Virus record (IMG/VR): IMGVR_UViG_3300028400_000003
Location: 1-64,000 of that record
DNA: 64,000 nt
Strand: one strand, 5' to 3'
Source: a virus
Part shown: piece by piece, positions 3,282-17,171 of the stretch
How the letters are laid out: every line of letters begins with the position of its first letter
Position numbering within the stretch: position 1 is the first letter of the stretch
Program-made: the position numbers and the translations under genes
Notes under the pieces: model-generated
Database searches by the model: none
Seen by the model: the letters and a program-made list of their open reading frames with translations, nothing else
What the model was told of the DNA's origin: nothing

Positions 3282-3284
3282 CCC

Positions 3285-3313
3285 TTGACATATATCGCCA
3301 TATCATATACAAT
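3285..3313 (+). promoter_or_regulatory. Early-type promoter
   Basis: TTGACA at 3285-3290, 17-base spacer, TACAAT at 3308-3313, followed by the GCAGGAGGTAGGC leader before ATG 3332. It is a member of the repeated promoter-leader family. Confidence 0.85.
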
Positions 3314-3331
3314 GTAGGCAGGAGGTAGGCG

Positions 3332-3532
3332 ATGAAGAAGATCAAGATGATCAGGGTTATTGACGAGCGCGGCCAGGTCATCACGGCCAAGGGTAGCCGG
3401 GCGGAGCGCCTTTGGGAGGCGCTGAAAGCCCGCTGCATCTATGACCACGTTAACAAGCGCGGTCAGATCGAGATGCAGATCCTCGACCGCCTTGGCCGTT
3501 TTCTGTTTCGCACGGTGGAGGTGGTGGTGTGA
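3332..3532 (+). CDS. Small hypothetical protein
   Basis: A 66-residue basic protein directly behind a strong promoter and an AGGAGGTAGGC ribosome-binding leader, so it should be highly expressed. The predicted fold is two beta hairpins around a helix (ERLWEALKARCIYD). Function unknown. Its stop overlaps the GTG of the next gene. Confidence 0.75.
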   Translation: MKKIKMIRVIDERGQVITAKGSRAERLWEALKARCIYDHVNKRGQIEMQILDRLGRFLFRTVEVVV

Positions 3533-3900
3533 GCGCCGAACTTAACGCCGTCATGGTCAACGCCTTCGACGTTTCGCCGTTGTTTTACAGGATCACGGTG
3601 AGCGCCCTCCTCAACGGGGATACGGCCCTGGTCCGCGCGACGGGCGAGCATAAGACCCTGGAAGAAGCGGCCCGTATCGTGGCGAAGTATTGGGCGGGCA
3701 GCGGGTTGCCGTTTGACGGTCATGGCGAAAACCCCCGCGCCTTTATGCCGCCGGTCACGGTGGATGGCGTTGAGATTGCCTGGCTCCCTTCATCGTGGGA
3801 AACCGGAGGCATAAATGAACGCTGGTTGGCCATGAAGCCGCACCTGAGCGGCATTTACTGGGTTGCGGATGACGCCCTGGAGGTTGCTAATGACGCTTGA
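3529..3900 (+). CDS. Hypothetical protein
   Basis: A 123-residue protein with a GTG start overlapping the preceding stop (GTGA). It has an alpha/beta pattern with an aromatic C-terminal half. Its 3' end overlaps the start of the MoxR-type ATPase gene by eleven bases, so it probably belongs to the same operon. No family recognised. Confidence 0.65.
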   Translation: MSAELNAVMVNAFDVSPLFYRITVSALLNGDTALVRATGEHKTLEEAARIVAKYWAGSGLPFDGHGENPRAFMPPVTVDGVEIAWLPSSWETGGINERWLAMKPHLSGIYWVADDALEVANDA

Positions 3901-4939
3901 GGAGAAGATCAAGAGGTACATCGAGCTTGACATCCCCGTGCTGCTCAAGGGGCCGCCAGGGGTAGGTAAAACCGAGCGCATTAAGGACCTTGCCAGCGCT
4001 GAGGGCTGGCACCTTGAGGTGCTTCCCCTGAACGTCATGGAGCCGCCCGACGTTGGCGGCCTGCCGGGTATCGTCAACGGTGAAGCTGTTTTCTTCCCAC
4101 CCGAGTGGGCCAAGCGGGTAGAGCGGGCGGCGGCCGATGGTAAGCGCCCGGTGGTGTTTATTGACGAACTGAGCACGGTCCCGCCTGCCGTACAGGGACC
4201 GGCGCTCAAGCTCATTCGTGAGCGGTATGCGGGCACGATCAAGCTCCCGGAGAACACCCGCTTTATCGCGGCGGTCAATCCGCCCGATACCACGGCGGGG
4301 GCCTGGGATACCATCGCGCCGCTGGCCAACCGATTCGCCCACGTCGAGGTGCGGGCCGATCTGGATGAGTGGGTTGCGTGGGCAGCGCGTCAGTCACCGC
4401 ACCATGCCCGCATCGCGGCCTTCCTGAAAACGAAACCCACGCTGCTTTTCAACCAGCCTAGCGGCTCGACCCTGGCGGCCCAAGCCTGGCCCAGCCCCCG
4501 TACCTGGGATCACGTGGCCAAGCTGCTGCGGTTTGAACCCGAACCTGCGGAGCTTTATGAGATGGCCGTTGAACAGGTAGGCGAAGGGGCGGCGGCTGAG
4601 TTTGCGGCTTGGATCAAGAAGGCCGAACTGATTGACCCGCACAAGGCGCTGGCGCAACCCGACGCCTTCGCACTCCCCAAGCGCGAGGATGCGGCTTTCT
4701 CGCTTGTCTATGAGGCCGGGGCCATTCTCAGCAACGCGGATGACGTCACCCGCTACTGGGCTCCCTTCTGGCGGCTGCTCACCCGAGTGCTCGATGCGGG
4801 TTACCGGGACATTGCGGCCACCGGGGCCGTAGTGGCCGTAGAGGCCTTTAGGAAGAGCGGCGGCAAGCTGCCTATACCGCAAGAGATCACTCACTTCTCC
4901 GACTACGTGCAAAACGTTTTAGAAAAGGTACGCGGATGA
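3890..4939 (+). CDS. MoxR-family AAA+ ATPase
   Basis: A AAA+ ATPase of the MoxR type, about 349 residues. Walker A GPPGVGKT lies at residues 21-28, Walker B is VVFIDELST, and sensor-1 is FIAAVNPPD followed by an arginine-bearing LANRFAHVEV. MoxR proteins act as chaperones that remodel VWA-domain partners, and the next gene (overlapping by ATGA) encodes one. ATG 3890 is chosen over an in-frame upstream ATG because GGAGG lies just before it and the protein then begins at the conserved helix. The phage target is unknown. Confidence 0.85.
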   Translation: MTLEEKIKRYIELDIPVLLKGPPGVGKTERIKDLASAEGWHLEVLPLNVMEPPDVGGLPGIVNGEAVFFPPEWAKRVERAAADGKRPVVFIDELSTVPPAVQGPALKLIRERYAGTIKLPENTRFIAAVNPPDTTAGAWDTIAPLANRFAHVEVRADLDEWVAWAARQSPHHARIAAFLKTKPTLLFNQPSGSTLAAQAWPSPRTWDHVAKLLRFEPEPAELYEMAVEQVGEGAAAEFAAWIKKAELIDPHKALAQPDAFALPKREDAAFSLVYEAGAILSNADDVTRYWAPFWRLLTRVLDAGYRDIAATGAVVAVEAFRKSGGKLPIPQEITHFSDYVQNVLEKVRG

Positions 4940-6117
4940 AGGCCAACGAGGTCTTAGAACTCCTACGGGCGGCCAGGCAGGTGGCCAGTCAACGCTACCC
5001 GTTCGTGGCTTCGATGATCTATGCCATGCATCTTAGGAGTGAGCCTACTCGCCACGAAGGTCTGGTAGCCGCCGTTTCCCAGCATGGAACGCTGTACTGG
5101 AACGATGAAGAGTTGCGCAAGATTGACCCCAAGCATTACCCTGGGATCATCTACCACGAGGCCAAGCACTTGTTGCTCAAGCATTTCAAGCGGGCGGAGA
5201 TCGCCGGTGTCGGTCCTGGGGGTCACAAGCCCTGGAACGTAGCGGCCGACATCGAGATCAACCAAGCGATACGGCGTGACCAAGCGCTTTCCCTACCTGA
5301 TTTTGCGTTGTACCCTGAAACGTTTGACCTTCCGCCTGGTCTGGTAGCGGAAGAGTATTACGACATGATCCGTGACCACGAAGACGCCCAAAGCGGCGCT
5401 CCTTCAGGGTCGGGTTCGGATGGGGTTGGGCGTGAGTGGGAGGGCGACTCCGAGGAGCCCCACCTTACGGAGGCCGACATCGAGGTGATACGTCACCAGG
5501 TGGCCAACGAGTATGTGGAGTGGAAAAAGCGCTATCAAGGTGCTACTCATGCGGACTACGAGCGCCTAGTCAAAGAGGTACTCAACCCGAAGGTTGACTG
5601 GCGGGTGTTGCTGGCGGGTCACATTCGCGCGGCCATTCAGGAGGGCTCGGGGGCTGACGACTACTCGTATAGCCGCCCAAGTCGCCGGTATGCAGGTAGC
5701 GGATTTGTTTACCCCAGGCTTCGAGGGCGTATACCAAAGGTGGCGCTGGTCCTTGACACTTCGGGCTCTATGAGTGCCCAAGACTTGAGCGTGGCTTTGT
5801 CTGAGGTGAAAGGGGTGATCGAAGCCGCCGGGGATGCTGTAGATTGGATCGCATACGACACCGAGGTCGCTTCGAGCGGGCGGACTCGAAGGCTCCAGGA
5901 CATTAAGCTGGCCGGGGGCGGTGGCACGGACATGAGTGCTGCGATCATGACCGCCGTTGAACGGAGCAGGCCCGATGTTATTGTGGTCATGACGGATGGG
6001 TATACGCAGTGGCCACCTGAGCCTGTTGGCCCTCACGTTATCGCCGCGATTATCAACACGAGGCAGACGCCGCCGGGGTGGATCAAGACCGTCTACGTAG
6101 GAGAGGAAAACGGATGA
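4936..6117 (+). CDS. VWA / metallopeptidase-like protein, MoxR partner
   Basis: A 393-residue protein with a metallopeptidase-like N-terminal domain (HEAKH at residues 74-78, with helix IEINQAI following, as in DUF2201-type proteins), a Ser/Gly/Glu-rich linker near 150-170, and a C-terminal von Willebrand A-like domain. The MIDAS motif DTSGSMS is at residues 274-280, with GGGGTDMSAAI and VVMTDG completing the metal site. HEAKH fits the HExxH pattern, so zinc binding is plausible. The start overlaps the MoxR stop, which fits a two-gene ATPase-VWA system. Confidence 0.8.
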   Translation: MKANEVLELLRAARQVASQRYPFVASMIYAMHLRSEPTRHEGLVAAVSQHGTLYWNDEELRKIDPKHYPGIIYHEAKHLLLKHFKRAEIAGVGPGGHKPWNVAADIEINQAIRRDQALSLPDFALYPETFDLPPGLVAEEYYDMIRDHEDAQSGAPSGSGSDGVGREWEGDSEEPHLTEADIEVIRHQVANEYVEWKKRYQGATHADYERLVKEVLNPKVDWRVLLAGHIRAAIQEGSGADDYSYSRPSRRYAGSGFVYPRLRGRIPKVALVLDTSGSMSAQDLSVALSEVKGVIEAAGDAVDWIAYDTEVASSGRTRRLQDIKLAGGGGTDMSAAIMTAVERSRPDVIVVMTDGYTQWPPEPVGPHVIAAIINTRQTPPGWIKTVYVGEENG

Positions 6118-6362
6118 GTAGAAAAGCTAAGATCGGGCCGCTACAGGAAAAGATTCTGGTAAAGGTTGCCGAGGAGGGGTGCGTTTTTACGCGCGACCTG
6201 CTCAGCGTTCATAGCAACAGGGGGTCAATCAATTATGCGGTGCATGCCCTTGCTGATCGCGGTTTTGTTACTATTCAGTATCACGGGGTCAAGCTATACA
6301 TCTGCATCACCAAGCGAGGACTCGAGCACGCCGGACGTTATCGTGCTGGTGAAGAAGCCTGA
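6114..6362 (+). CDS. Winged-helix DNA-binding protein
   Basis: An 82-residue protein with the helix-helix-helix-wing layout of a winged helix: LQEKILVKVAEEG, then RGSINYAVHALADRG as recognition region, then a wing FVTIQYHGVKLYICITKRG. A likely transcriptional regulator of phage genes. ATG 6114 overlaps the preceding stop (ATGA). More than half of its length is overprinted by the next gene in another frame. Confidence 0.7.
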   Translation: MSRKAKIGPLQEKILVKVAEEGCVFTRDLLSVHSNRGSINYAVHALADRGFVTIQYHGVKLYICITKRGLEHAGRYRAGEEA

Positions 6363-6726
6363 GCCGCAAGTGCTCGAAGTACCGCAGCTTGGCCGCAGGG
6401 TCCGCGTAACGTTTTACCAGCCCGTGCACGGGCAGACGGACGATGCGCCTAGCATAGCTAGCTGCGGCCCCAACCGCGAGCCCTGGAGGCAGGTGGCCGT
6501 AAGCCGTGACTTGTTTTACACCCCAGACGGTCACAAGCGCTGCGGTGAAACCGTCGAAATCGTTTTGGACCGGCCGGTAGTAACGGCCTCCGGAGTCAAG
6601 GTCACGGTGGTGCGTGGCGTTATATGGGATACCATGCACCCGCGTTACCGCGATGCGGTTGACGTGTTGGTTGGTCCTGACGAGCCCGCCTTGCGCTACG
6701 GTGTTGTAGGCGGGTGGTTGCGGTGA
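6235..6726 (+). CDS. Secreted 3D/RlpA-like beta-barrel protein
   Basis: A 163-residue protein with an apparent signal peptide (MRCMPLLIAVLLLFSITGSS...SA). The mature part reads VRVTFYQPV...VAVSRDLFY...GETVEIVL...IWDTMHPRYRDAVDVLV, which recalls the 3D / double-psi beta-barrel domains that bind or cut peptidoglycan. A cell-wall role is inferred, not proven. The chosen ATG lies inside the winged-helix gene; AGGGGG upstream supports it. An upstream in-frame ATG at 6166 would bury the signal peptide. Confidence 0.55.
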   Translation: MRCMPLLIAVLLLFSITGSSYTSASPSEDSSTPDVIVLVKKPEPQVLEVPQLGRRVRVTFYQPVHGQTDDAPSIASCGPNREPWRQVAVSRDLFYTPDGHKRCGETVEIVLDRPVVTASGVKVTVVRGVIWDTMHPRYRDAVDVLVGPDEPALRYGVVGGWLR

Positions 6727-7241
6727 GCCGCCTTGATCAGCAGGCGCTCGATAGAATTGACCTTTCCGTTAGGGTTATCGTCGGTCCTATCATGGATGCC
6801 GTTACCCCGATTCTTAACGTGGCCGCAGCCCTGTTTTCCAGTGCGATGATGATCGTGCTCACTTACACGTCACCCTCTCCCCTGCTTTATGCGGTGTTTA
6901 CCACGGTGGCCATGCTGTCTGTAGCAACCATAGGTATAGCTTTTCATTACTGGCCTGAGCGCGAGGCCCGTGCGTGGTTGCAAACGGCGCGATCCGCGAT
7001 GCGCGAGGTGGCCGCTCACCCGCCCTCTTTAAAACGCCACTTGGAACGGATAGGGCGTATGCGTCTTCTTCTTCTCCCCAAGACCCGCCGGCTCCTCGAA
7101 GCAGTGGAAGAAGAAGCCGAAGCCTATTTCATCATGGCGCGGCTTATTGGGATACCTGACGATGAAGCGGCCTATTCCGACTGGTTCGCACGCCAGAGCG
7201 TCGAGGCGCGTATGAGGCAGAGTGGTATATCATGGGATTAA
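6723..7241 (+). CDS. Membrane protein, two transmembrane segments
   Basis: About 172 residues. Two hydrophobic stretches near residues 20-65 (ILNVAAALFSSAMMIVLTYT and LLYAVFTTVAMLSVATIGIA) form a helical hairpin, followed by a charged helical C-terminal domain. GTG 6723 overlaps the previous stop (GTGA). It follows a secreted wall-active-like protein, so an envelope function such as lysis or exclusion is conceivable but unproven. Confidence 0.65.
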   Translation: MSRLDQQALDRIDLSVRVIVGPIMDAVTPILNVAAALFSSAMMIVLTYTSPSPLLYAVFTTVAMLSVATIGIAFHYWPEREARAWLQTARSAMREVAAHPPSLKRHLERIGRMRLLLLPKTRRLLEAVEEEAEAYFIMARLIGIPDDEAAYSDWFARQSVEARMRQSGISWD

Positions 7242-7693
7242 TGGATAAACCCACTACAGTACGTGTACATATCGCCATGCCGTCAGGGGAGCGAGTGCGA
7301 ACGTGTCACGGCCGCCGCTTCGCCTGTCCCCTATGCGGTACCGAGTTGCAGCTAAAGCGGTCGAAGATTAGTGAGTTTATGGAGGATGCCGCTGGAACCC
7401 CGGTAAACGTTTTCAAGCGAACCTATTATTGCCCATCATGCGAGTTTAAACTGCATAGTCAGGTATGGCGGCCTTACGGAGAGAACCCGTGCTGCCAGCA
7501 GCAGCTTTCCCATTTGAACCCGAGTATGACCAAGATCGTGGACATGTGGGTGGAGCGCGACGGCAACCTTACCATCTACCGTAAGCGGGAGGCGTTCGCG
7601 TGCACTTGCGGCATATATTACGAGTGGCCCGAGGGGGCCGTAATACCCTTCGACCGTGGAGCCGACGCGGGTGGAAACGATGAACCGGTCTGA
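7241..7693 (+). CDS. Cysteine-rich zinc-binding hypothetical protein
   Basis: About 150 residues with three cysteine clusters (CPLCG, CPSC, CTCG), suggesting two zinc ribbons. ATG 7241 overlaps the upstream TAA (TAATG) and has TATCAT 7 bases before it, so it could also be made from a leaderless transcript. ATG 7232 is an alternative start. Function unknown. Confidence 0.65.
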   Translation: MDKPTTVRVHIAMPSGERVRTCHGRRFACPLCGTELQLKRSKISEFMEDAAGTPVNVFKRTYYCPSCEFKLHSQVWRPYGENPCCQQQLSHLNPSMTKIVDMWVERDGNLTIYRKREAFACTCGIYYEWPEGAVIPFDRGADAGGNDEPV

Positions 7694-8027
7694 CTGCAAG
7701 CTCCCCCCTCACCTGGCGGTAGCCCTGGCCAGCGCCGTTCGCACGTACTACTCCGGCCGCTGGCCCGATCACGTGGCCCTGCCGCAGCTTCGCGCCGTAG
7801 ACCACGCCTATGACGAGCCCGGTGGAACCACGCTGCTCGACACCATGACTAGGGAACAGATGCAGGCGGGACTCGAGCGGCTGAAGTTGTTTTACCCGCG
7901 CGATCATAGGATGCTACTTGCTGGCCTGGGCAACAAGCTAGACCCCAAGCGGGCGGTGGTGTTTTACCTTGCGCTTTGCAGGCTATGGACGGTGTTGAGG
8001 GCACTTGATAAGCAGGGAGGAGAGTAG
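7680..8027 (+). CDS. Hypothetical helical protein
   Basis: About 115 residues, mostly helical, with a paired histidine/aspartate region (FYPRDHRMLLAGLG). ATG 7680 overlaps the end of the previous gene by 14 bases. No family recognised. Confidence 0.6.
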   Translation: MNRSDCKLPPHLAVALASAVRTYYSGRWPDHVALPQLRAVDHAYDEPGGTTLLDTMTREQMQAGLERLKLFYPRDHRMLLAGLGNKLDPKRAVVFYLALCRLWTVLRALDKQGGE

Positions 8028-8028
8028 T

Positions 8029-8241
8029 ATGACAAGAAGCGGAGAGAGGGCTGGAAAAAGGATGCTGCTGGCGGTAAGGGCGGGCGGCCTCGAAGCGGGC
8101 ACGCGGGTTGTGGTGCTGCGGCCCGTCGGAGATGGCCAGGTGTTGGCCCTGGTTGAGGGGGAGGGCAAGAAGGTCTTGCTCCCACGCAACGTGCTCAGTG
8201 AGGTGGTGAATGGTGATGAGGCGCAGACGGAAGAAGGATGA
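8029..8241 (+). CDS. Small hypothetical protein
   Basis: 70 residues, very basic N-terminus, then beta strands (TRVVVLRPVGDGQVLALVEG) like a small barrel. It starts at ATG 8029 after GGAGGAGAG. Possibly nucleic-acid binding; function unknown. Confidence 0.6.
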   Translation: MTRSGERAGKRMLLAVRAGGLEAGTRVVVLRPVGDGQVLALVEGEGKKVLLPRNVLSEVVNGDEAQTEEG

Positions 8242-8716
8242 GAAAGCGAAGGCCGATCAGCAAACCAAGCCTGAAGCTCAAGGGCTCGAGTCCGGGGTGG
8301 CCGGTGGCGGTGCTCAGGGCGTTGAGGCTACGGTTGAGGAGACTACGCCTACCGCGCAAAAGGGGGTAGGTTGGGATAAGGAGTTCAACGAGGCCGCCGA
8401 AGCGCTCGATGAGATCGTGGCCTGGCTTCGTGAGCGCGGCTTCAGAGACCTCGACATGCTGGTTCCCTGTTGCCCGCAACAGATCAGCGGCAGGACGCCG
8501 GGGGGCTGGTTGTTTTACTACAGGGTTAGGAGTGGCGATGGGATGCTCGTTGCCGATCCAGCCGTGAAAGACCTGAACGAGTTAGTCGAGCGCTCCTTCA
8601 GTGAAACCAACCCCCCGGCGGTTAGCCTGACCTGGGTTGAAGACTCCAAGGCCAACGGTGGATGGTCTACCCTGCTCACGGCCACCCGCAAATTGGCCAG
8701 CCTGGTAGGTTTCTGA
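8210..8716 (+). CDS. Hypothetical protein with basic low-complexity N-terminus
   Basis: 168 residues. The N-terminus (MVMRRRRKKDEKAKADQQ) and a Gly/Glu/Thr-rich stretch to about residue 50 look disordered; the rest is a folded alpha/beta domain with WLFYYRVRSGDGML. It overlaps the previous gene by 32 bases and its stop overlaps the next ATG (TGATG). Function unknown. Confidence 0.6.
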   Translation: MVMRRRRKKDEKAKADQQTKPEAQGLESGVAGGGAQGVEATVEETTPTAQKGVGWDKEFNEAAEALDEIVAWLRERGFRDLDMLVPCCPQQISGRTPGGWLFYYRVRSGDGMLVADPAVKDLNELVERSFSETNPPAVSLTWVEDSKANGGWSTLLTATRKLASLVGF

Positions 8717-8907
8717 TGGCGGACATTACCAAATGCAGAGTTGATCAGTGCGACTTTAAGGAGCGGTGCTGGCGCTACCTGGCACCGGCAAGCGAACATA
8801 ATCAGGCCTGGTTCCTGCCGCAGCCGAACAAGACTGGAATCTTTTGCGAGTTGTTTTGGGATGTAAGCGATGCCAAAAACCGCAGGGCCAGACGTACCGC
8901 GCGTTGA
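8716..8907 (+). CDS. Small cysteine-rich protein
   Basis: 63 residues with cysteines at CRVDQC, ERCWRY and IFCELF. The pattern of four Cys around a Trp/Tyr core is common in small phage metal-binding or [Fe-S]-like proteins. It starts by TGATG overlap with the gene upstream. Function unknown. Confidence 0.6.
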   Translation: MADITKCRVDQCDFKERCWRYLAPASEHNQAWFLPQPNKTGIFCELFWDVSDAKNRRARRTAR

Positions 8908-9172
8908 GTCTTCCGGTCGGAGGTGTTTGGTCATGGCCGCGTTAATGCCCCGGTTGATCATGCTGGCCCACGAGATTAGGCGGGTGTTGCCGGGTAGAAG
9001 CATCCACTTGGTTTACGAACCTGATGAAGATGGAACAATCTGGACGATGTATGTACTGCTAGCTGGTAATAACCTATACGACGACCTGTCCAAGCTTTAC
9101 TCCATCTATTACGACTTTCTACCTAGGCAGGGTCCGCAATTCAACCGACGGGTAGCCCTAGCCCCGTTGTGA
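8870..9172 (+). CDS. Hypothetical protein
   Basis: 100 residues starting at ATG 8870, overlapping the preceding gene by 38 bases. It has a helix (LIMLAHEIRRVL) and paired strands (IHLVYEPDEDGTIWTMYVLL). No family recognised; last gene of this run before a weak promoter. Confidence 0.55.
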   Translation: MPKTAGPDVPRVESSGRRCLVMAALMPRLIMLAHEIRRVLPGRSIHLVYEPDEDGTIWTMYVLLAGNNLYDDLSKLYSIYYDFLPRQGPQFNRRVALAPL

Positions 9173-9180
9173 ACTAGGAC

Positions 9181-9209
9181 TAGACGTGTAGCGCGTTAAC
9201 ATGTATAGT
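9181..9209 (+). promoter_or_regulatory. Weak promoter
   Basis: TAGACG at 9181-9186 and TATAGT at 9204-9209 with 17-base spacing, ahead of the gene at 9230. The -35 matches consensus at four of six bases. Confidence 0.4.
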
Positions 9210-9229
9210 AGGCGTGAGGGGTGACTGGA

Positions 9230-9427
9230 ATGACCATACGCTACCGCTTCGAGGCGCAACGCAAGGATACGGGCTACACCGTAAAGGTGAGCACGTCGCA
9301 CTATCCGTTTGCCTCCTGGCGGGATGCTGGCACCCTCAGCCTGAGTGTCGAAGAGTGGGAGGCGCTGCGTGACATGATCGGGCGCTTTACGGCCAGCGTC
9401 AAGCTGGACGAGTTGCAAGAGGTTTAG
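9230..9427 (+). CDS. Small hypothetical protein (VEEWEALR family)
   Basis: 65 residues. It resembles the product at 1105 in layout: an N-terminal beta sheet (TIRYRFEAQRKDTGYTVKV), then LSLSVEEWEALRDMIG. Preceded by GAGGGG and a weak promoter, followed by a terminator. GTG 9221 is an alternative start. Function unknown. Confidence 0.6.
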   Translation: MTIRYRFEAQRKDTGYTVKVSTSHYPFASWRDAGTLSLSVEEWEALRDMIGRFTASVKLDELQEV

Positions 9428-9440
9428 GTGCACCACAATG

Positions 9441-9464
9441 GCCCCGGCATGCCGGGGCTTTTAG
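9441..9464 (+). terminator. Intrinsic terminator
   Basis: A perfect self-complementary GCCCCGGCATGCCGGGGC followed by TTTT, in the gap between the gene ending at 9427 and the promoter at 9477. Confidence 0.8.
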
Positions 9465-9476
9465 CAGTCTTTGGGC

Positions 9477-9505
9477 TTGACAAATAGCGCAACCCCCTAT
9501 ATACT
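9477..9505 (+). promoter_or_regulatory. Early-type promoter
   Basis: TTGACA 9477-9482, 17-base spacer, TATACT 9500-9505, then the AAGGACAGGAGGTAGGC leader before ATG 9523. It drives the operon that holds the Csx16-like gene. Confidence 0.9.
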
Positions 9506-9522
9506 AAGGACAGGAGGTAGGC

Positions 9523-9909
9523 ATGCTGAAGAACATGGAACATATCAGAAGCGCGTTTGACAAGGCGATCAAGGAACGCATCGTGCCTGACTGGGAGGCG
9601 TTCGCGCGTGAGCATGGCGAGGGCGATGCGGAAATGCTGGCGCATGACCTCTACCGCTTCGATCCCCGCTGGTGCGATTGCCCGGAGGAGACGAAGGTCT
9701 GGATCAACGAGACGCTTGCTCGGGCTGCTCGCGAGTACCTGGAGGCGCTGAAAGCCAAGGCGCAAGCCAAGCCGCAACCGCAACCTGACTACCCGGAGGG
9801 GCGGGAGCTGGACTGCGGGCACGTGGTCTACTACAAAACTGACGTTATGCGGGCCAGCCTCGGGACCGTTTGCCCCGACTGCTACGATGACCCCCGCTGG
9901 AGCGGCTAG
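9523..9909 (+). CDS. Hypothetical protein with C-terminal zinc ribbon
   Basis: 128 residues. The N-terminal ~85 residues are helical and acidic, followed by a KAKAQAKPQPQPQ-type linker and a short ribbon LDCGHVVYY...CPDC. First gene behind a strong promoter and leader. Function unknown; immediately followed by the Csx16-like gene. Confidence 0.7.
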   Translation: MLKNMEHIRSAFDKAIKERIVPDWEAFAREHGEGDAEMLAHDLYRFDPRWCDCPEETKVWINETLARAAREYLEALKAKAQAKPQPQPDYPEGRELDCGHVVYYKTDVMRASLGTVCPDCYDDPRWSG

Positions 9910-9910
9910 C

Positions 9911-10204
9911 ATGGAAAGGCCGCTGATCGTCACACGACACCCCGCCCTCGTTGAGTATCTACGGGAGCTTGCGCCGAGCCTCCACGAGGCCGAAGTGCGA
10001 ACCCACGTGACGGAAGACGACGTGCGGGGCCGGGTGGTGTTTGGAACGCTGCCGCTTCATCTGGCAGCCCTTGCGGAAAAGGTAGTCGTGGTGCCGCTAA
10101 ACCTTCCTTACGAACTGCGGGGTAAGGAGCTAAGCCTGGAGCAGGTTCGCCAGTATGCGGGCAAACTTGAAGTCTATGTGGTGCAGAAGGAGGCGGTGGA
10201 ATGA
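9911..10204 (+). CDS. csx16: Csx16 (VVA1548)-family protein, candidate anti-CRISPR ring nuclease
   Basis: A 97-residue protein matching the Csx16 / Cas_VVA1548 pattern along its full length: IVTRHPALVEYLREL at the start, then GRVVFGTLPLHLAAL (43-54), then LNLPYELRGKELSLEQV (63-79) and a final strand LEVYVV. Csx16 proteins accompany type III CRISPR systems. From memory of recent work they act as ring nucleases that degrade cyclic oligoadenylate messengers. In a phage, such an enzyme would switch off type III immunity. It lies second in an early-promoter operon, fitting an anti-defence role. Family assignment by eye is fairly strong; activity is inference. Confidence 0.75.
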   Translation: MERPLIVTRHPALVEYLRELAPSLHEAEVRTHVTEDDVRGRVVFGTLPLHLAALAEKVVVVPLNLPYELRGKELSLEQVRQYAGKLEVYVVQKEAVE

Positions 10205-10560
10205 GCACCAAACAAGCAACGCAGATCGAGTGGATGGCCAGCTTTTTCTACAAGACCGTGGCGAGGGCGTGGTTGCACCTCTACCTTGCTGAGAGGAGCG
10301 TGGGCCTCGCCATCACAAACGGCGCTGCGGAGGAGGCCGTTCACATCAGCTTTGCTAGGCTAGCCCTCAAGCATGCGGAGATGGAGGTGGACAACGCACG
10401 GGTCATCATGAACGACCTGGTAGGGCTGATGAAGGAGCGGTCATGGGCGAAAGAGGAACGGGCCGAGGTGGAGGGTGTTTTCTATCAGCTAAGCGGTGCG
10501 TTCAGCAATTTAAAGCGGCGCGTGGCGCAGGTAGGGGGAGGTGATGGTGGTGAGCGGTAA
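10201..10560 (+). CDS. Hypothetical helical protein
   Basis: 119 residues, all-helical by composition, starting with an ATGA overlap from the Csx16-like gene, so co-translated with it. Possibly a coiled coil or four-helix bundle. No family recognised; as an operon neighbour of a candidate anti-CRISPR it is worth noting. Confidence 0.65.
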   Translation: MSTKQATQIEWMASFFYKTVARAWLHLYLAERSVGLAITNGAAEEAVHISFARLALKHAEMEVDNARVIMNDLVGLMKERSWAKEERAEVEGVFYQLSGAFSNLKRRVAQVGGGDGGER

Positions 10561-10762
10561 GCACACGATCAAAGAGCTAATGGAGTTGTGGCAGGAGTAC
10601 AACCGTAAGCGTGACGAGTATGGCCGTCTGAGGTTCGGCCAATTCGTGTGCAACAGGTTCGGCTGGAGCGGGCGGGATAGGCTGTTCTACACCACGGACA
10701 ACAACGATGCCTTTAGAATGGCCTATGAAATTCTTCAAGGCGAAAAGGAGGTAGGCTGGTGA
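10550..10762 (+). CDS. Small hypothetical protein
   Basis: 70 residues, helical, ending in ILQGEKEVGW. GTG 10550 lies 9 bases after GGGGGAGG; ATG 10544 is possible but too close to it. Its stop overlaps the GTG of the exonuclease gene. Function unknown. Confidence 0.6.
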   Translation: MSGKHTIKELMELWQEYNRKRDEYGRLRFGQFVCNRFGWSGRDRLFYTTDNNDAFRMAYEILQGEKEVGW

Positions 10763-11442
10763 GTGAGCCGATCAAGGACCACGTAGTGTTTTTCGACATC
10801 GAGACCGTTCCCTCGACGGATGAGGAGGTGCGGCGTGCGGCCCATGCACGGGCGACCCGCATTGCTGAAGGCAAAGGGGAGGAGGCCCCAACAGAAGAAG
10901 AGGCGATCCAGCGCTTCGCCATGAGCAATGGAATTTACAACGAGATTGTCAGTATCGCATGGGCCAAGGGCGAGGGAGAGGTACAGGTGGCCACGGCCAA
11001 GGACTTTGAAGAGGTTAGCCTGCTCACCATGTTCGCCACCGCGTTGGGCAACCCCAAGCGCGTGTTCCTGGTAGGCTACAACATCTTCGCCTTCGACCTG
11101 AAGGTCATGTTCCAGAGGGCGGTCATCCTTGGCGGCCCCAGTCATCCGGAGTTTGAAAACCTGTTCAAGGTCCTGCCCAAGCCATCGGTTGCGCCCTGGC
11201 AGGCCGGTAACGCGCTCGATCTGGCCACCTACTGGAACGGCGTTGCCGGTATCAAGGCCCCACTCTATGATCTGGCCGTTGGTTTGGGGCTGGTCAGTTA
11301 CGATGAGGCGGCGCGATACGACAACGGGGCCGACGTGGCCGGGTTCGTGCGGGATGGGGAGTGGAACAAGCTCCGCGAACACAACGCCTTTGACGTGCAC
11401 ATCACCCGCGAAATTTACCGGCGCGTGGTGCTCGGGGGTTAG
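10759..11442 (+). CDS. DEDD-type 3'-5' exonuclease
   Basis: 227 residues with an RNase H-like exonuclease fold. Exo I is FFDIETVP (Asp13, Glu15), exo II is GYNIFAFDLKVM and exo III is REHNAFDVHIT. This set matches polymerase-B-like 3'-5' exonucleases that degrade or proofread DNA. There is no polymerase domain, so it is a stand-alone nuclease. The GTG start overlaps the previous stop. Confidence 0.75.
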   Translation: MSEPIKDHVVFFDIETVPSTDEEVRRAAHARATRIAEGKGEEAPTEEEAIQRFAMSNGIYNEIVSIAWAKGEGEVQVATAKDFEEVSLLTMFATALGNPKRVFLVGYNIFAFDLKVMFQRAVILGGPSHPEFENLFKVLPKPSVAPWQAGNALDLATYWNGVAGIKAPLYDLAVGLGLVSYDEAARYDNGADVAGFVRDGEWNKLREHNAFDVHITREIYRRVVLGG

Positions 11443-11443
11443 G

Positions 11444-11839
11444 GTGTCGCAGGTAGTGGTCAGGACCGAAATATGCGACATGGTGCTGCATCGAGAGCAG
11501 CGCTCGAAGGCCCGCAAGCGTCACCGGTGCACGTCCTGCGACGGCCCGATTCCACCGGGAGCCACTTACACGAGGCACGGGGTGCTTGAGCGGGCGGATG
11601 GCAGGTGGCATACCTATAAGGTTTGCGGCCGCTGCGAGGAGCTTTTCTACTGGAACCTTGACCAGGGGGCTTATGCCTGCGAAACGAGCTTTACCGATCC
11701 CGTAGAAGACTTTTTCGACAGCTACACAAAGGGAGACCTGCCCATGTTGGCCCGTAGCGCTATGCCCCGCGATCTGGCCAACTGGTTGGCGAGGTTATGC
11801 GGGACTACACTAGCAAGGCTTGAGAAAGGAGAGGAATGA
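11444..11839 (+). CDS. Zinc-finger hypothetical protein
   Basis: 131 residues. RKRHRCTSCDGPIPPGATYTRH and VCGRCEEL form a Cys4 zinc finger like those near phage HNH or recombination proteins, followed by a helical tail. GTG 11444 sits two bases after the exonuclease stop. Nucleic-acid binding is likely; role unknown. Confidence 0.65.
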   Translation: MSQVVVRTEICDMVLHREQRSKARKRHRCTSCDGPIPPGATYTRHGVLERADGRWHTYKVCGRCEELFYWNLDQGAYACETSFTDPVEDFFDSYTKGDLPMLARSAMPRDLANWLARLCGTTLARLEKGEE

Positions 11840-12129
11840 GCAAGCCCAACGCGCAAGGCAGAAGGGGGATGACCATGAGCGTATCCGTGACCATCGAGGT
11901 GGGACCGCTGGCAGAGCCGCTTGGCAGGCAGCTTGAACAGAAAGGCATTGCCTACAACCGCAAGGGCGTGGCGGCGCTGGAAAAAGACCTTGAAGCGGTT
12001 CACCGGCTCAAGGTTCGTGGTTATCTGAACGATCAGACGGTAGCCTCCATCGAGGAAGAGATCGTCACGGAGAGGCTTGGCGGGGAAGTTTACACCGGCG
12101 AGGAGGAGGCGAAAAATGGAAAAGCCTGA
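11836..12129 (+). CDS. Hypothetical protein
   Basis: 97 residues, beginning by ATGA overlap. Predicted strands (MSVSVTIEVGPL) then helices (RKGVAALEKDLEAVHRLKV), acidic C-terminus. An internal ATG at 11875 could be the true start of the folded part. Function unknown. Confidence 0.6.
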   Translation: MSKPNAQGRRGMTMSVSVTIEVGPLAEPLGRQLEQKGIAYNRKGVAALEKDLEAVHRLKVRGYLNDQTVASIEEEIVTERLGGEVYTGEEEAKNGKA

Positions 12130-12823
12130 CGCTCACACTTTGATCAAGCAGTTTCGCGAGGTCTACCCGATCCTGATCGAGACACAGATGCTACTCGATG
12201 CTCCGCGCATGGGCAACCCGCCGCCAGAATCCCTTCTCCGCGTGGCCCTGCTTGCTGAGATCGGGGAGATGCTGAATGCCCTAAAGCCTAGATGGGCATG
12301 GTGGAAGCGGCGGGACAAGACCTTTGAAGAGGGTGACGTGTTAGGCGAGTTGGCGGACATAATGCACTTCGCGCTTGGTCTCGACGTTCGTGTGCTTCAC
12401 TCGATCTACGCAGAGGCCGCGGTCGGGCATGGAAAGCACCCCGTAACGCTCAGCGGTTTTACCTTTGCCCATGCTAAGCCGCACATCGGCCTTCTCCTAG
12501 ATCACTACGCCGATGAAGGTCCGGCTCGCCGGTTGCTCGATTCCGCCATCGGAGAGTATGAAGCCTGCCTCGACGGGCTCGATGAAGGGCCGTGCGACAT
12601 CGTGGCGGAGCTGCTTTACAGGGGGTGGTTTACCTTTGATACCGCACCCTACATGCGCCTTCACTCCTACAGGACTTATGTTGAGATGATCGTTATGGCC
12701 GGGTTTAGCGTCGAGCGCCTGGTAGACGCTTATTTTAACAAAGCCCGGGAGAACATGGGGCGGTGGGAGCGTGACCCCAAGCAGGTTGACGAGGTGCTGA
12801 GGAGAGGGGCGGGCCATGAGTGA
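12116..12823 (+). CDS. Dimeric dUTPase / MazG-superfamily pyrophosphatase
   Basis: 235 residues. The all-alpha NTP pyrophosphatase signature is visible: LLAEIGEMLNALKPRWAWWK, then VLGELADIMHFALGLDV (metal-binding Glu/Asp pairs), and a late YFNKARENMGRW segment typical of dimeric dUTPases. It would hydrolyse dUTP to dUMP, limiting uracil in DNA and supplying dUMP. ATG 12116 follows GAGGAGGCG and overlaps the preceding gene. A related substrate such as a modified dNTP cannot be excluded. Confidence 0.75.
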   Translation: MEKPDAHTLIKQFREVYPILIETQMLLDAPRMGNPPPESLLRVALLAEIGEMLNALKPRWAWWKRRDKTFEEGDVLGELADIMHFALGLDVRVLHSIYAEAAVGHGKHPVTLSGFTFAHAKPHIGLLLDHYADEGPARRLLDSAIGEYEACLDGLDEGPCDIVAELLYRGWFTFDTAPYMRLHSYRTYVEMIVMAGFSVERLVDAYFNKARENMGRWERDPKQVDEVLRRGAGHE

Positions 12824-12986
12824 CGTGGACAAGAAGCTCAAGAAGTTGCGTGAGCAGATCGCGCGGCTTGAGCGTAAGCTTACTGAACTAGAGGGTGCGC
12901 TGGAGGAGGTCAGGGGCTCTCCACGGAAAACCGATGGGGCGAAGAAGGAGCCACGGGTGCCCGTCAAAACCTACAAAGAGTATTGA
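12816..12986 (+). CDS. Small coiled-coil protein
   Basis: A 56-residue protein. The first ~35 residues form a heptad coiled coil (LKKLREQIARLERKLTELEG), followed by a basic tail. ATG 12816 overlaps the dUTPase end and follows GGAGAGGGG. A likely oligomerising accessory protein; function unknown. Confidence 0.6.
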   Translation: MSDVDKKLKKLREQIARLERKLTELEGALEEVRGSPRKTDGAKKEPRVPVKTYKEY

Positions 12987-12988
12987 TC

Positions 12989-13300
12989 ATGCTCAAGGCG
13001 TATTGGGTTGGCCCGCCGCCTCACTCGCCTATCTCTCCAGGCCATCTGATTTGGGCCGATGGAGAGCGCAAGGCCCGGCTTTTGTTTGCTCAACACGTGG
13101 AGTGGGCGGATGAGATTGCCTTCATGTATCCACCCTACATCAGCGCGAGGGCATGGCGGGCACCGGGCTATGACGGCATGGTGACAATGGCGATGCTATC
13201 GGATGACGTGGTGTACGTAGGGTCTGATGGCGTAGTCCCTAGTCATGACTTCTTGCGCGAGGTCGGGGCCTTTTCCGACGCGCTCGAGTCCCTCGATTGA
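12989..13300 (+). CDS. Hypothetical protein
   Basis: 103 residues, aromatic and proline-rich at the N-terminus (YWVGPPPHSPISPGH), alpha/beta after that. ATG 12989 is two bases after the preceding stop. It is the last gene before the CCA-enzyme promoter. No family recognised. Confidence 0.6.
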   Translation: MLKAYWVGPPPHSPISPGHLIWADGERKARLLFAQHVEWADEIAFMYPPYISARAWRAPGYDGMVTMAMLSDDVVYVGSDGVVPSHDFLREVGAFSDALESLD

Positions 13301-13305
13301 ATTGC

Positions 13306-13334
13306 TTGACAAATAGCGTAATACCCTATATAAT
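13306..13334 (+). promoter_or_regulatory. Early-type promoter giving a leaderless mRNA
   Basis: TTGACA 13306-13311, 17-base spacer, TATAAT 13329-13334. Only six bases (GCAGGC) separate the -10 box from the ATG at 13341, so transcription should start at or next to the start codon. Confidence 0.9.
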
Positions 13335-13340
13335 GCAGGC

Positions 13341-14630
13341 ATGGAACCGAAGGCGATCTACCTGGTAGGCGGAGCGGTGAGGGATGTACTGCTTGGTCGC
13401 CCGGTAAGCGACCTGGACCTGCTGGTAGAGGGGTTCAGTCAAGACGAGCTTAAAGCGACGCTCGGGGAGCCCAACGGCAAGAGCTTTCCCGTGTGGCGGT
13501 ACGGACCTTTTGAAGTGGCCGCCGCCAGGTTGGAAAGAAAGACCGGCGCGGGTCACAAAGGGTTCAGCGTCGAATGGGGAGAGCACGTGACCGCCAGGCA
13601 GGAGCTTGGCCGTCGCGACTTTACCGTCAACGCGCTGGCCCTGCTGATCTGGTCAGGCAACGGCGGCATGCCTAGCGTGAGAACACTAGAGGCTATCACG
13701 GCCGCCGCTATCGTTGATCTGAGCAAGCACGGCCGCAACGCCGTTGGCCTCCTGAACCCGTTTGGGGGACTCGAGGATTTGCTGGATCACAAGGTGCTCA
13801 GGGCCACGAACCGCAAGGCGTTCCGGGAAGACCCGTTACGGGTGCTGCGTCTGGCCCGCTTCGCGGCGCGGTGGCCCTGGATGAGCCTGGACGAGTGGAC
13901 GGTCGAGGCCGCCCGCAACGCGGTGCACGAGCTTAAAACCCTGCCTGCTGAGCGGGTGTGGAACGAGTGGGTTAAAGCCAGCAAGACCCGCCGCCCCGAC
14001 CGCTTCTTCCAAGTGCTTGACCAGGTGGGGGCGCTTGAGCACCTGCCAGGCTTCGCTTGGTTGAAAAGGGCTAAGCAGCTGACCCCGCCGAACCACTCGG
14101 AGAGTCTGTTTGACCACTCACTGCGTACCCTCCGGGCGGCGCGGCGGCTCGTTGGCGTGGACGTGGCCCTGCTGTCTGCGGCCCTTTGGCATGATCGGGG
14201 TAAGCTGGCGGGGTCGGTTGGGCATGACCGCCACGGGGTGGAAATGGCCCTCGAAGACCTCGACGCGCTCAAGGCTCCGCGCAACGTTCGGCGAACCGTA
14301 GCTACGTGGGTCCGTAACCATATGCGGGTTTGGGATGCCAAGCGGGCGGGCAAGTTGGTTCGGTTGGCCGCTGACCTGGATCGAGCGGGGTTTGACCCTA
14401 ACCTTGTTACGCGCATGGCGGCTGCGGATAGCCTGGGAAGCACCAAGCGTAAAAGCGACGCGCGGGCGATCTGCAAGATGCACCGCCGCCTTGCCCTGGC
14501 GTTCAAGTCGCTTAGTGCGGTGCGTGGTGACGACCCGGCCCTGGATGGAGTCAGTGGTCAGGATGTAGGGGTCAAGCTGCTAGGGCTTCGTGCTCACTGG
14601 TTGTCACGCAGAATGAGGGGAAGGCTATGA
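13341..14630 (+). CDS. cca: CCA-adding enzyme (tRNA nucleotidyltransferase)
   Basis: A 429-residue class II tRNA nucleotidyltransferase, which builds or repairs the 3' CCA of tRNAs in the cytosol. Visible motifs: GGAVRD (10-15), the catalytic DLDL (24-27), RRDFTVNA (91-98), EDPLRVLR (163-170), and a C-terminal HD phosphohydrolase domain with WHDRGK near 283-288. All ten phage tRNA genes already encode CCA, so a repair role is more likely than first-time CCA addition. The mRNA looks leaderless. A poly(A) polymerase activity is the alternative within this superfamily. Confidence 0.85.
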   Translation: MEPKAIYLVGGAVRDVLLGRPVSDLDLLVEGFSQDELKATLGEPNGKSFPVWRYGPFEVAAARLERKTGAGHKGFSVEWGEHVTARQELGRRDFTVNALALLIWSGNGGMPSVRTLEAITAAAIVDLSKHGRNAVGLLNPFGGLEDLLDHKVLRATNRKAFREDPLRVLRLARFAARWPWMSLDEWTVEAARNAVHELKTLPAERVWNEWVKASKTRRPDRFFQVLDQVGALEHLPGFAWLKRAKQLTPPNHSESLFDHSLRTLRAARRLVGVDVALLSAALWHDRGKLAGSVGHDRHGVEMALEDLDALKAPRNVRRTVATWVRNHMRVWDAKRAGKLVRLAADLDRAGFDPNLVTRMAAADSLGSTKRKSDARAICKMHRRLALAFKSLSAVRGDDPALDGVSGQDVGVKLLGLRAHWLSRRMRGRL

Positions 14631-14893
14631 CCTATTTCATGGCGTGTGAAGAGGTGTTGGACAAGCCGGCCTTCCTTGAAGGGGCTAAGGGAGGCTACTA
14701 CCGCGCCTTCGTTACGGCCGAGGCGCTGCTGGCCAGTTTCCAGGGCTCCGATGATACTCCTGTAGCCCTGTTTGACGGTAACGCTAAGCGTGATCCAGAG
14801 GGCGGCGCTGATGGGATGGTGCTGGTCTGGCCGGTTCGCCTGCTGGGTTGGACTACGGTTAGTGACCTGCGGGGTAAGGTAAAGCGGCGCTAG
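14627..14893 (+). CDS. Hypothetical protein
   Basis: 88 residues, ATGA overlap with the CCA-adding enzyme gene, so co-expressed with it. Mixed alpha/beta with DGMVLVWPVRLLGW near the end. No family recognised. Confidence 0.65.
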   Translation: MTYFMACEEVLDKPAFLEGAKGGYYRAFVTAEALLASFQGSDDTPVALFDGNAKRDPEGGADGMVLVWPVRLLGWTTVSDLRGKVKRR

Positions 14894-14919
14894 GTGTACG
14901 GCATTTTGCCGCACATTTA

Positions 14920-14939
14920 AAAGTTTGACCGGGTACAAA
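14920..14939 (+). promoter_or_regulatory. Conserved upstream box (30 bases before -35)
   Basis: AAAGTTTGACCGGGTACAAA. The TTGAC core begins at 14925, exactly 30 bases before the -35 at 14955. The same arrangement occurs at 16095, 16626 and 26426. A candidate regulator-binding site. Confidence 0.55.
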
Positions 14940-14954
14940 CATGGTTTATTGCGC

Positions 14955-14983
14955 TTGACAAATAGCGTAGTACCCTATATACT
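14955..14983 (+). promoter_or_regulatory. Early-type promoter
   Basis: TTGACA 14955-14960 and TATACT 14978-14983, 17-base spacer, followed by AAGGACAGGAGGTAGGC and ATG 15002. Confidence 0.9.
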
Positions 14984-15001
14984 AAGGACAGGAGGTAGGC
15001 A

Positions 15002-15211
15002 ATGACTATGACTAAGGTTCAAATCGAAGCCCTTAAGACCGAAGCGATGATTAAAAGAGTCATTTACGAGGGCAAGCAAAAAACCCTCAAGGGCCTCTTG
15101 GACTACGGGTTTGAGGACCAGGAAGAAATCTCTGCCCTTCGGGCCGAGATCAAGGAGGCCATGCGCCAGTGGTTGGAAGCCGAAAAGGCGCTGAAGGAAG
15201 CTAAGCAATGA
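15002..15211 (+). CDS. Small hypothetical protein
   Basis: 69 residues, highly charged and helical, probably a coiled coil at the C-terminus (RQWLEAEKALKEAKQ). First gene behind a strong promoter. Its stop overlaps the next ATG. Function unknown. Confidence 0.7.
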   Translation: MTMTKVQIEALKTEAMIKRVIYEGKQKTLKGLLDYGFEDQEEISALRAEIKEAMRQWLEAEKALKEAKQ

Positions 15212-15402
15212 CCAGGGCGGAGGCCGGTTTTAAGGCCGTTAAGGCCCTCGTTGAATGCGGCCGCAAGGAAGAAGCGGAGGCGCTGATGGACCTTCTGCAA
15301 TACGATAGCGTGTTTGACGCTATCTATTCCCTTGCGGAGCGTTCAGGACGGTACAAGGTGACGCTCAAGGCTGAGGACGACGCGGAGGCTGCCCTGCTCT
15401 AG
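15208..15402 (+). CDS. Small hypothetical protein
   Basis: 64 residues, helical with an acidic end, ATGA overlap with the preceding gene. Helix repeats such as AVKALVECGRKEEAEALMDLL resemble a TPR-like helical hairpin. Function unknown. Confidence 0.65.
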   Translation: MTRAEAGFKAVKALVECGRKEEAEALMDLLQYDSVFDAIYSLAERSGRYKVTLKAEDDAEAALL

Positions 15403-15419
15403 GGCGCATAGGGGGTTCC

Positions 15420-16076
15420 ATGAAAAAGCCTGTGGTAGTGGTTCAAGACGCTGAGGTGCTGGCCGAGGCTGGAAAACGCAGCATAGACGTACTCGCCCTT
15501 GGAGGGCGTATCCTCTGCATTGCCGATCCGGAAACCAGCATCGAGGTTGCGGCCTCCCTCGCCATGAGCGTGTACCTGCGTGACGTATCCACTAAGGGAG
15601 CGGATGCCAAGGTCTACAGCGCCATAGTGGCCGGACGACATGAACAGGGGTTCGTGGTTGCGGTCCTCGACCTACTCCCCTGGATCGGCTATCAGATCAT
15701 GACCGCCCTTGACAAGGGCGACAGTGGAATCATCGCCAGTACGGCCGTCAACGAGATGGCGCTCGCGGTATGGTCCGAGGTTACCTTTCAGCAGGTCGAA
15801 GAGTTCCAGGGGTGGATGGGTCTCGCAGCCGGTATCAAGGGCGGCGAAGCCAAAGCCATGTCTCCAGGATGGCTTAAGCCGTATATTGAATTCGCCGAAC
15901 ACGTGCGGTTCACCGGTAAGCTGGTTGGTCATCCGGCCTCGATCCTGTACACCCTGGGGCGCAACCCCGTTGCTGGTATCAAGGCTTTGGAGATGCTGGT
16001 TGATCATCTGATGAAGCAGCAAGGGGACGAGAAAGAGGATGGAGGCTTTGACGTGACGAAGGGGCTGAAGGCTTAG
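15420..16076 (+). CDS. Hypothetical protein
   Basis: 218 residues, alpha/beta N-terminal half (VLALGGRILCIADPETSIEVAASLAM), helical C-terminal half, charged tail. It starts after GGGGGTTCC. No family recognised. The length and hydrophobic core suggest a stable globular domain rather than a small host-takeover peptide. Confidence 0.65.
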   Translation: MKKPVVVVQDAEVLAEAGKRSIDVLALGGRILCIADPETSIEVAASLAMSVYLRDVSTKGADAKVYSAIVAGRHEQGFVVAVLDLLPWIGYQIMTALDKGDSGIIASTAVNEMALAVWSEVTFQQVEEFQGWMGLAAGIKGGEAKAMSPGWLKPYIEFAEHVRFTGKLVGHPASILYTLGRNPVAGIKALEMLVDHLMKQQGDEKEDGGFDVTKGLKA

Positions 16077-16094
16077 CAGCCCAGCCTCCAGCGA

Positions 16095-16114
16095 AAAATT
16101 TGACCCGGTTCAGT
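16095..16114 (+). promoter_or_regulatory. Conserved upstream box
   Basis: AAAATTTGACCCGGTTCAGT. The TTGAC core at 16100 is exactly 30 bases before the -35 at 16130. A divergent member of the set at 14920, 16626 and 26426. Confidence 0.45.
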
Positions 16115-16129
16115 CTTTGCCGTGTACCC

Positions 16130-16158
16130 TTGACATATATGGCAATGCCATATATACT
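16130..16158 (+). promoter_or_regulatory. Early-type promoter giving a leaderless mRNA
   Basis: TTGACA 16130-16135, 17-base spacer, TATACT 16153-16158; ATG 16165 begins only 6 bases later. Confidence 0.85.
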
Positions 16159-16164
16159 TAAGGC

Positions 16165-16569
16165 ATGAAAACCCTGACCCTTCACCCCACTACCGGCCCC
16201 AAGACCAAAGCCACTATGGAAGCCAGGATCAGCTTTGACTGGGCCTGGGACCTGGTTCGTAAGTTCGCGAACAAGGCCGAAGGCGTCGGGCCGTTCATCG
16301 GCACGCGCATTCTCGATGAGATCATCATCGGGAACGCCGAGGCCGACGCGGATGCGGACACGCTCGCGGACCGGGCCTTTAGCGCCTGGGAGTCTGGGGC
16401 TGATTGGGCTTTGCACCTTACGGTGCTGGGTGCCCTTCAGCAGCTCCACAAGGCGAAGGCGCGGCCGAAGGACGGCGTTATCACGCTGCGGCTGCGTAAG
16501 GACTACACGCCCATCGAGTACGGTTTCGGCGCGGAGCCAGGACGCTGGCACAAGGCGGCCGGTGCTTAG
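16165..16569 (+). CDS. Hypothetical protein, leaderless
   Basis: 134 residues with an acidic middle (EADADADTLADRAF) and a helical core. There is no ribosome-binding site and the -10 box is 6 bases before ATG, so it should be translated from a leaderless mRNA. It is followed by a strong terminator, making a single-gene unit. Function unknown. Confidence 0.7.
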   Translation: MKTLTLHPTTGPKTKATMEARISFDWAWDLVRKFANKAEGVGPFIGTRILDEIIIGNAEADADADTLADRAFSAWESGADWALHLTVLGALQQLHKAKARPKDGVITLRLRKDYTPIEYGFGAEPGRWHKAAGA

Positions 16570-16584
16570 ACCCGACGTGGTGCG

Positions 16585-16618
16585 GGTGCCACCTGGAAGC
16601 GGGTGGCACCTTTCTTTT
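16585..16618 (+). terminator. Intrinsic terminator
   Basis: GGTGCCACC (16585-16593) pairs with GGTGGCACC (16602-16610) across the loop TGGAAGCG, followed by TTTCTTTT. It ends the single-gene unit at 16165. Confidence 0.85.
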
Positions 16619-16625
16619 CCGTCTG

Positions 16626-16645
16626 AAAGTTTGATCGGGTACAAA
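16626..16645 (+). promoter_or_regulatory. Conserved upstream box
   Basis: AAAGTTTGATCGGGTACAAA. The core at 16631 is exactly 30 bases before the -35 at 16661 and differs from the 14920 copy at one base. Confidence 0.55.
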
Positions 16646-16660
16646 GATGGCCCTATGTGC

Positions 16661-16689
16661 TTGACAAATAGCGTAGTACCCTATATACT
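16661..16689 (+). promoter_or_regulatory. Early-type promoter
   Basis: TTGACA 16661-16666, TATACT 16684-16689, 17-base spacer identical to that at 14955, then an AGGAGGTAGG leader before ATG 16708. Confidence 0.9.
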
Positions 16690-16707
16690 AAGAACAGGAG
16701 GTAGGAC

Positions 16708-17157
16708 ATGAGCATCATCGCTTTCGGACAGAACGGACAAGCAAAACTGGCCTGGGCTTTCAACGTAGCGCTTCACGCTCACGACATGAGCATCACGGTT
16801 AAGGTTCCGAAGGGGGCGGAAGCTGCCCTGGAAAACCTGGTTGGCGTTGAGGTGCGTAATGGTTGGGCGCGGTTCAACCGTTATGACGATCTGGCCAAGC
16901 TGGTTGCGCTGGCCAATCTGGACAGCTACCGCCAGCGCTACGGTGAGGATGCCGGCGAGTACCACAAGGGCTACCTCACCGCTACCTCGGACGAGACGAC
17001 GGATGAGGAAAAGCTGGCGTGGAGCGTGTTGAGCCGCTACCGGAACAACATCTACCGCGAGGCCCTTAACGGCCTGGGAGCAGTAGCCCTTGACGCGCTG
17101 AACAAGGCCATGCACGCTATCGCCGAGGCTAAGCTTTACGCCTACGTGGAGATGTAA
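16708..17157 (+). CDS. Hypothetical protein
   Basis: 149 residues. An N-terminal beta-rich part (MSITVKVPKGAEAALENLVG) is followed by a helical C-terminal half. Strong promoter and ribosome-binding leader. No family recognised. Confidence 0.7.
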   Translation: MSIIAFGQNGQAKLAWAFNVALHAHDMSITVKVPKGAEAALENLVGVEVRNGWARFNRYDDLAKLVALANLDSYRQRYGEDAGEYHKGYLTATSDETTDEEKLAWSVLSRYRNNIYREALNGLGAVALDALNKAMHAIAEAKLYAYVEM

Positions 17158-17171
17158 ACAAGGAGGGCGGA

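Follow-up and report, generated by a model that had tools for sequence, protein, structure and literature searches.

The window analysed here is a stretch of 64,000 bases, corresponding to bases 1-64000 of an 84,085-base IMG/VR virus record. On its plus strand lies a csx16-like gene (9911..10204) encoding a 97-residue protein, MERPLIVTRHPALVEYLRELAPSLHEAEVRTHVTEDDVRGRVVFGTLPLHLAALAEKVVVVPLNLPYELRGKELSLEQVRQYAGKLEVYVVQKEAVE, which belongs to a virus branch of Csx16 described below and is a predicted ring nuclease for cyclic tetra-adenylate (cA4). The start codon at 9911 is backed by a GGAG sequence 8 bases upstream and by the start positions of relatives. With the alternative in-frame ATG upstream, at 9887, the gene would overlap the preceding one. 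The record carries terminase, head protease and tape-measure genes, and the genomic setting of csx16 is that of a tailed phage; the first-pass annotation had rightly called the protein phage-encoded.

The gene is the second in a cluster that occupies 9523-11442 on the plus strand. The first gene (9523..9909) encodes 128 residues with C-terminal cysteine pairs, DCGH and CPDC. The stop codon of csx16 lies in a 4-base overlap with the third gene (10201..10560; 119 residues), and the two are likely to be translationally coupled. A 73-residue product is encoded by the fourth gene (10541..10762), and the fifth (10759..11442) encodes a PolB-type 3'-5' exonuclease-like protein (PF10108, E 3.5e-6; phrog_403, E 1.2e-5); this gene serves replication, not anti-defence. 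Just before the first gene there is a sigma-70-type promoter, TTGACA-17-TATACT (9477..9505, plus strand), which matches the consensus at 11 of 12 positions and makes the earlier proposal of a shared operon plausible. Within 3000-20000, seven sites, this one among them, agree with the consensus at 11 or all 12 positions, and the next one downstream is at 13306. These seven near-perfect promoters (TTGACA-17-TATACT/TATAAT/TACAAT) span 17 kb (3285-19846) and are all on the plus strand.

It had also been suggested that the genes at 9523, 10201 and 10550 could be further anti-defence genes, and here we found nothing in favour. The products of the genes at 9523, 10201 and 10541 have no family match in Pfam, NCBIfam, PHROGs or PADLOC; the two that were searched against viral contigs, those of 9523 and 10201, have no relatives there; and viral carriers of csx16 have unrelated neighbourhoods with no neighbour gene in common. 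Searches of the viral contigs for relatives of the terminase and the exonuclease of this phage likewise found none, and so offered no closely related phage in which the presence or absence of csx16 could be compared. The phage proteins closest to those of this phage are distant and mixed, and they yield no host prediction.

Membership of the Csx16 family is, judged by profile matches, practically certain. The blocks TRHP, GTLPLHLAAL and LPYELRGKELS occur in the translation in the order first noted as typical of Csx16/VVA1548 proteins. The Pfam family PF09652 (Cas_VVA1548/Csx16) matches with an E-value of 4.3e-19 and a score of 68.9 bits (the cut-off is 25), and its alignment is full-length, pairing residues 6-91 of the window protein with positions 2-90 of the 91 in the profile. 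Three PADLOC models for Csx16 match over nearly the whole length (best E 9.1e-19) and a fourth matches partially; a PHROGs search gave no match. The NCBIfam model TIGR02620 is likewise covered from end to end, but the score of 30.7 bits (E 2.8e-7) falls short of its curated cut-off of 46.35. We therefore regard the window protein as part of a divergent branch of the Pfam family that lies outside the TIGR02620 group.

When the window protein was used as the single query, no relatives turned up among the viral contigs. Scans of uncultured viral contigs guided by two alignments (A2 and A4) found Csx16 on 57 other contigs, with 51 distinct sequences. Pfam hallmark models for terminase and portal match 12 of the 48 virus records tested, and a terminase is also present on contig L011; the remaining viral carriers rest on the IMG/VR classification, and some could be plasmids or other elements. 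Plasmid matches were few, comprising pMESIL02, pDEIPR02, one archaeal plasmid and two Allochromatium plasmids. Among the four plasmids checked for Cas10, pALVIN01 was positive, and pMESIL02, pDEIPR02 and the archaeal plasmid were negative. A published survey of 28,114 phage genomes reported Csx16 in only two (PMC12409355). In our tblastn search of 50,697 phage records, only Methanobacterium virus Drs3 was matched, in two records of the same virus, and queries with two other viral Csx16 proteins and one cellular Csx16 matched none of these records. We assume that the two phage genomes of the survey are perhaps the two Drs3 records.

A maximum-likelihood tree of Csx16 (134 rows, 102 alignment columns), whose inner forks are weak, groups the window protein with 48 other rows at a support of 100/98. 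This branch of 49 holds 46 viral rows, pMESIL02, pDEIPR02 and one MAG contig assigned to Patescibacteria, which is probably phage DNA because it carries a terminase. Adjoining it are two more viral rows and one planctomycete row; the planctomycete csx16 has ParB and phage-integrase genes no more than a few kilobases away, and the Cas10 of that genome is on another contig. A 99/90 branch separates these from the remaining 78 cellular rows, which share their side of the tree with Drs3, the archaeal plasmid, pALVIN01 and viral contig L011. Of 56 viral-type sequences, the patterns used to scan cellular genomes recognise only 8. As a fairer test, a profile built from the virus set (A6) was run on 1,375 genomes from four phyla, and virus-type proteins were found only in the two genomes already known to carry them, two of the four phyla having been picked for containing those genomes. 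The other matches with recovered sequence belonged to the CRISPR-locus type, and every one except a single protein had the A-x-V-C motif described below; three matches were left untyped. That the virus branch resides mostly on mobile elements is thus supported rather than proven.

The viral and cellular carriers differ in their association with type III genes. Neither Cas10 (PF22335) nor RAMP proteins (PF03787) were found on the whole 84,085-base record, in keeping with a phage setting free of host type III genes, and neither the window nor bases 64001-84000 of the record (L144) showed a CRISPR array. Cas10 was missing from every one of the 58 Csx16-encoding virus records, this one included, and present in all 14 of the cellular Csx16 genomes checked; a CRISPR-like array flanks Csx16 in 44 of 80 cellular loci. 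A crude repeat scan flagged five viral Csx16 loci. Four of these (L012, L103, L104 and L112) were rejected as CRISPR arrays, since their repeats appear to be in tandem, with no differing spacers between them; in the fifth (L143), the repeat has an 80-base period and lies at the contig end.

Profile-profile alignment of the virus set with CRISPR-locus Csx16, the comparison proposed at the outset as a check on family identity, extends over 93 columns with 99.7% probability (E 8e-26), and PF09652 was matched by all 25 sampled members of the virus branch and its relatives. Fourteen positions are conserved in both branches (R9, H10, H32, G40, V43, G45, L47, P48, L51, L63, R70, G71, E73 and L74), and the window protein keeps every one. 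Virus-branch proteins lack a four-residue A-x-V-C insertion that follows the GxLPxxLA block in CRISPR-locus Csx16, where its cysteine is 99% conserved; they have lost W16 and D41, which are conserved in the CRISPR-locus form, and the window protein has L13/L17 where that form has A/A. The virus branch has diverged within and after the GxLP block. Given the absent insertion, the specificity or the rate of virus-branch Csx16 may differ from that of its cellular counterpart.

The AF2 model of the window protein is an alpha/beta structure with a pLDDT of 95.7, and its main secondary-structure elements follow the same order as those in a model of CRISPR-locus Csx16. The latter has a longer helix after the GxLP block, at the place where the virus branch is four residues short. 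A Foldseek search with the window model found nothing significant in the PDB or among viral structures. With the CRISPR-locus model, the Crn1-type protein Sis0455 ranked first (E 0.027, prob 0.89; not significant), and Sso2081, Cam1 and Csm6 structures were within the top 50, again none of them significant.

CRISPR-locus Csx16 (PF09652, TIGR02620, VVA1548) is alike in its full-length homology, in the order of its elements and in the 14 conserved residues, and is set apart from the window gene by the latter's position away from cas genes, its separate branch and its score under the TIGR02620 cut-off, in addition to the missing insertion and the L13/L17 pair. Two related proteins are plasmid-borne: those of pMESIL02 (Allomeiothermus; 47.8% identity) and pDEIPR02 (Deinococcus; 44.3%) fall in the same branch and have no accompanying Cas10. 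The pMESIL02 protein consists of two Csx16 domains in tandem (L003, 7992-8777), and there is a further copy at 1785-2111 of that record. The Csx16 of Drs3 (AXN53384.1), which is annotated as Cas_VVA1548, is also virus-encoded and is 31.8% identical to the window protein; Drs3 is, however, an archaeal virus, and its Csx16 lies outside the virus branch on a long end branch of unsure placement.

Three other virus-encoded ring nucleases have been established or proposed, namely AcrIII-1, AcrIII-2 and phage Crn4b (PMC12751052, PMC12830947). AcrIII-1 (DUF1874, viral Crn2) is a small virus-encoded cA4 ring nuclease for which the same role has been proposed (PMC12409355). It belongs to a different family, and the Pfam search with the window protein gave no match to DUF1874. 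Whether AcrIII-1 natively acts as an anti-CRISPR is reportedly disputed in one study. AcrIII-2 (viral SAVED) and phage Crn4b, both proposed type III anti-CRISPRs, are of other families again (PMC12751052, PMC12830947). Like AcrIII-1 and AcrIII-2, the window Csx16 is borne by a virus, with no Cas10 on its own record or on the 57 other viral records.

The statement in the first-pass annotation that Csx16 degrades cyclic oligoadenylates is borne out for the CRISPR-locus form: Hoikkala et al. showed that a CRISPR-locus Csx16 is a cA4-specific ring nuclease that does not cleave cA6, and placed its conserved residues at a modelled ligand site (PMC12409355). Because Csx16 has this demonstrated activity and the window protein keeps the family-wide residues, its most likely function is that of a ring nuclease acting as a type III anti-CRISPR. 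We consider it probable that the virus uses the window protein to degrade cA4 and so to blunt type III immunity, homology being the ground for carrying the activity over from the CRISPR-locus protein. Host type III CRISPR complexes respond to phage RNA by producing cA4 through Cas10, and cA4 switches on toxic effectors such as Csm6/Csx1. In the scheme that we infer, which extends to the cleavage activity of the window protein, its dimeric state, the role of each residue, the timing of expression and the protection of the phage, the strong host-type promoter would drive expression of phage Csx16. Two copies of the protein would pair into a small dimer of Rossmann-like (CARF-like) fold, take up cA4 on the face with the conserved residues T8-R9-H10, H32, G45-x-L-P48 and R70-G-x-E73, and cut it into linear A2 products, so that the effectors would stay off. 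As its branch is distinct and mostly virus-borne, the virus form of Csx16 probably helps many uncultured phages to silence the host alarm in this way.

The retained residues also bear on the possibility that the virus-branch protein is a cA4 sponge, sequestering cyclic oligoadenylate and cleaving it slowly or never. Phages have sponges for other cyclic nucleotides, such behaviour has been discussed for Csx15 (PMC12409355), and the loss of the A-x-V-C insertion and of W16 and D41 relative to CRISPR-locus Csx16 could be read in this light. Nevertheless, the residues common to both branches, including R9, H10, H32, R70 and E73, are kept, as would fit a retained active site, and we think a sponge unlikely. 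The same divergence in and after the GxLP block might instead have redirected the protein to a different cyclic nucleotide, so that it would counter another signalling defence, for example one that uses the cA3 of CBASS, and not type III immunity; Crn4 ring nucleases, for their part, accept several cyclic oligoadenylates (PMC12830947). Against this, the Csx16 in the literature cleaves cA4 specifically and does not act on cA6 (PMC12409355), and cellular carriers of Csx16 have Cas10, which makes a change of target quite improbable.

Some mobile elements carry CRISPR systems of their own, and Csx16 might accordingly be the built-in off-switch of a type III system belonging to the phage. The absence of Cas10 and RAMP proteins from a record that may be incomplete, the lack of an array in the window and in L144, and the absence of Cas10 from all 57 other viral carriers together leave this with hardly any probability. 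We give equally little credence to a chance motif. The sequence GTLPLHLAA is ankyrin-like, and a PDB sequence search with the protein gave only designed ankyrin-type proteins, aligned over stretches of ∼25–60 residues, as might be seen if this were an ankyrin-like or unrelated small protein. An ankyrin identity for the block is ruled out by the full-length PF09652 match, the full-length profile-profile match, and a confident model that is alpha/beta and not built of helical repeats.

If the cA4 ring nuclease interpretation holds for the branch as a whole, virus-branch Csx16 would join AcrIII-1 and AcrIII-2 as a third family of ring nucleases with which viruses counter type III CRISPR. It would be widespread and specialised for mobile elements, occurring in uncultured phages that are unrelated to one another, with no member in the phage reference records that we searched. 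On balance, we lean towards this view. Known virus-encoded ring nucleases are few, and later literature names AcrIII-1 and AcrIII-2 as the viral examples. We did not find a virus-borne Csx16 branch in the open literature searched, which covers few subscription papers or preprints and is no proof of priority. As the branch occurs on dozens of unrelated contigs, the destruction of cA4 would be a commoner phage strategy than isolate databases suggest, and its members, clearly distinct in structure through the missing A-x-V-C insertion, would be at hand for comparing the speed and breadth of viral and cellular enzymes.

Several Csx16 proteins have unusual domain arrangements. A 261-kb viral contig encodes three consecutive Csx16 domains, one stand-alone and two in the next ORF (L096, 6001-7305). 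On a Marinospirillum contig (L063, 501-3194), Csx16 is fused to ∼800 residues that contain no other confident Pfam domain, possibly an effector with a built-in off-switch. C-terminal extensions of ∼140–200 residues, with no Pfam match, are present on three viral Csx16 proteins (L013, 1892-2800; L097, 5992-6699; L131, 6001-6726).

Other features of the phage genome are recorded here for completeness. The record contains ten tRNA genes and one tmRNA (22249-22567; RF00023, 108.8 bits; tag GNDTFLAAA), which heads the tRNA cluster. A CCA-adding-type tRNA nucleotidyltransferase with an HD domain is encoded at 13341-14630; CCA is already encoded in all ten tRNA genes, and the enzyme may serve in tRNA repair. 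A match to the DUF3800-IX RNA family (RF02968) lies at 25721-25781, with 48.9 bits against a threshold of 36.8. Finally, an AAA ATPase gene adjoins one for a DUF2201 metallopeptidase/VWA protein at 3863-6117, a MoxR/VWA-like pair, and distant relatives of the VWA protein are found in many phages.
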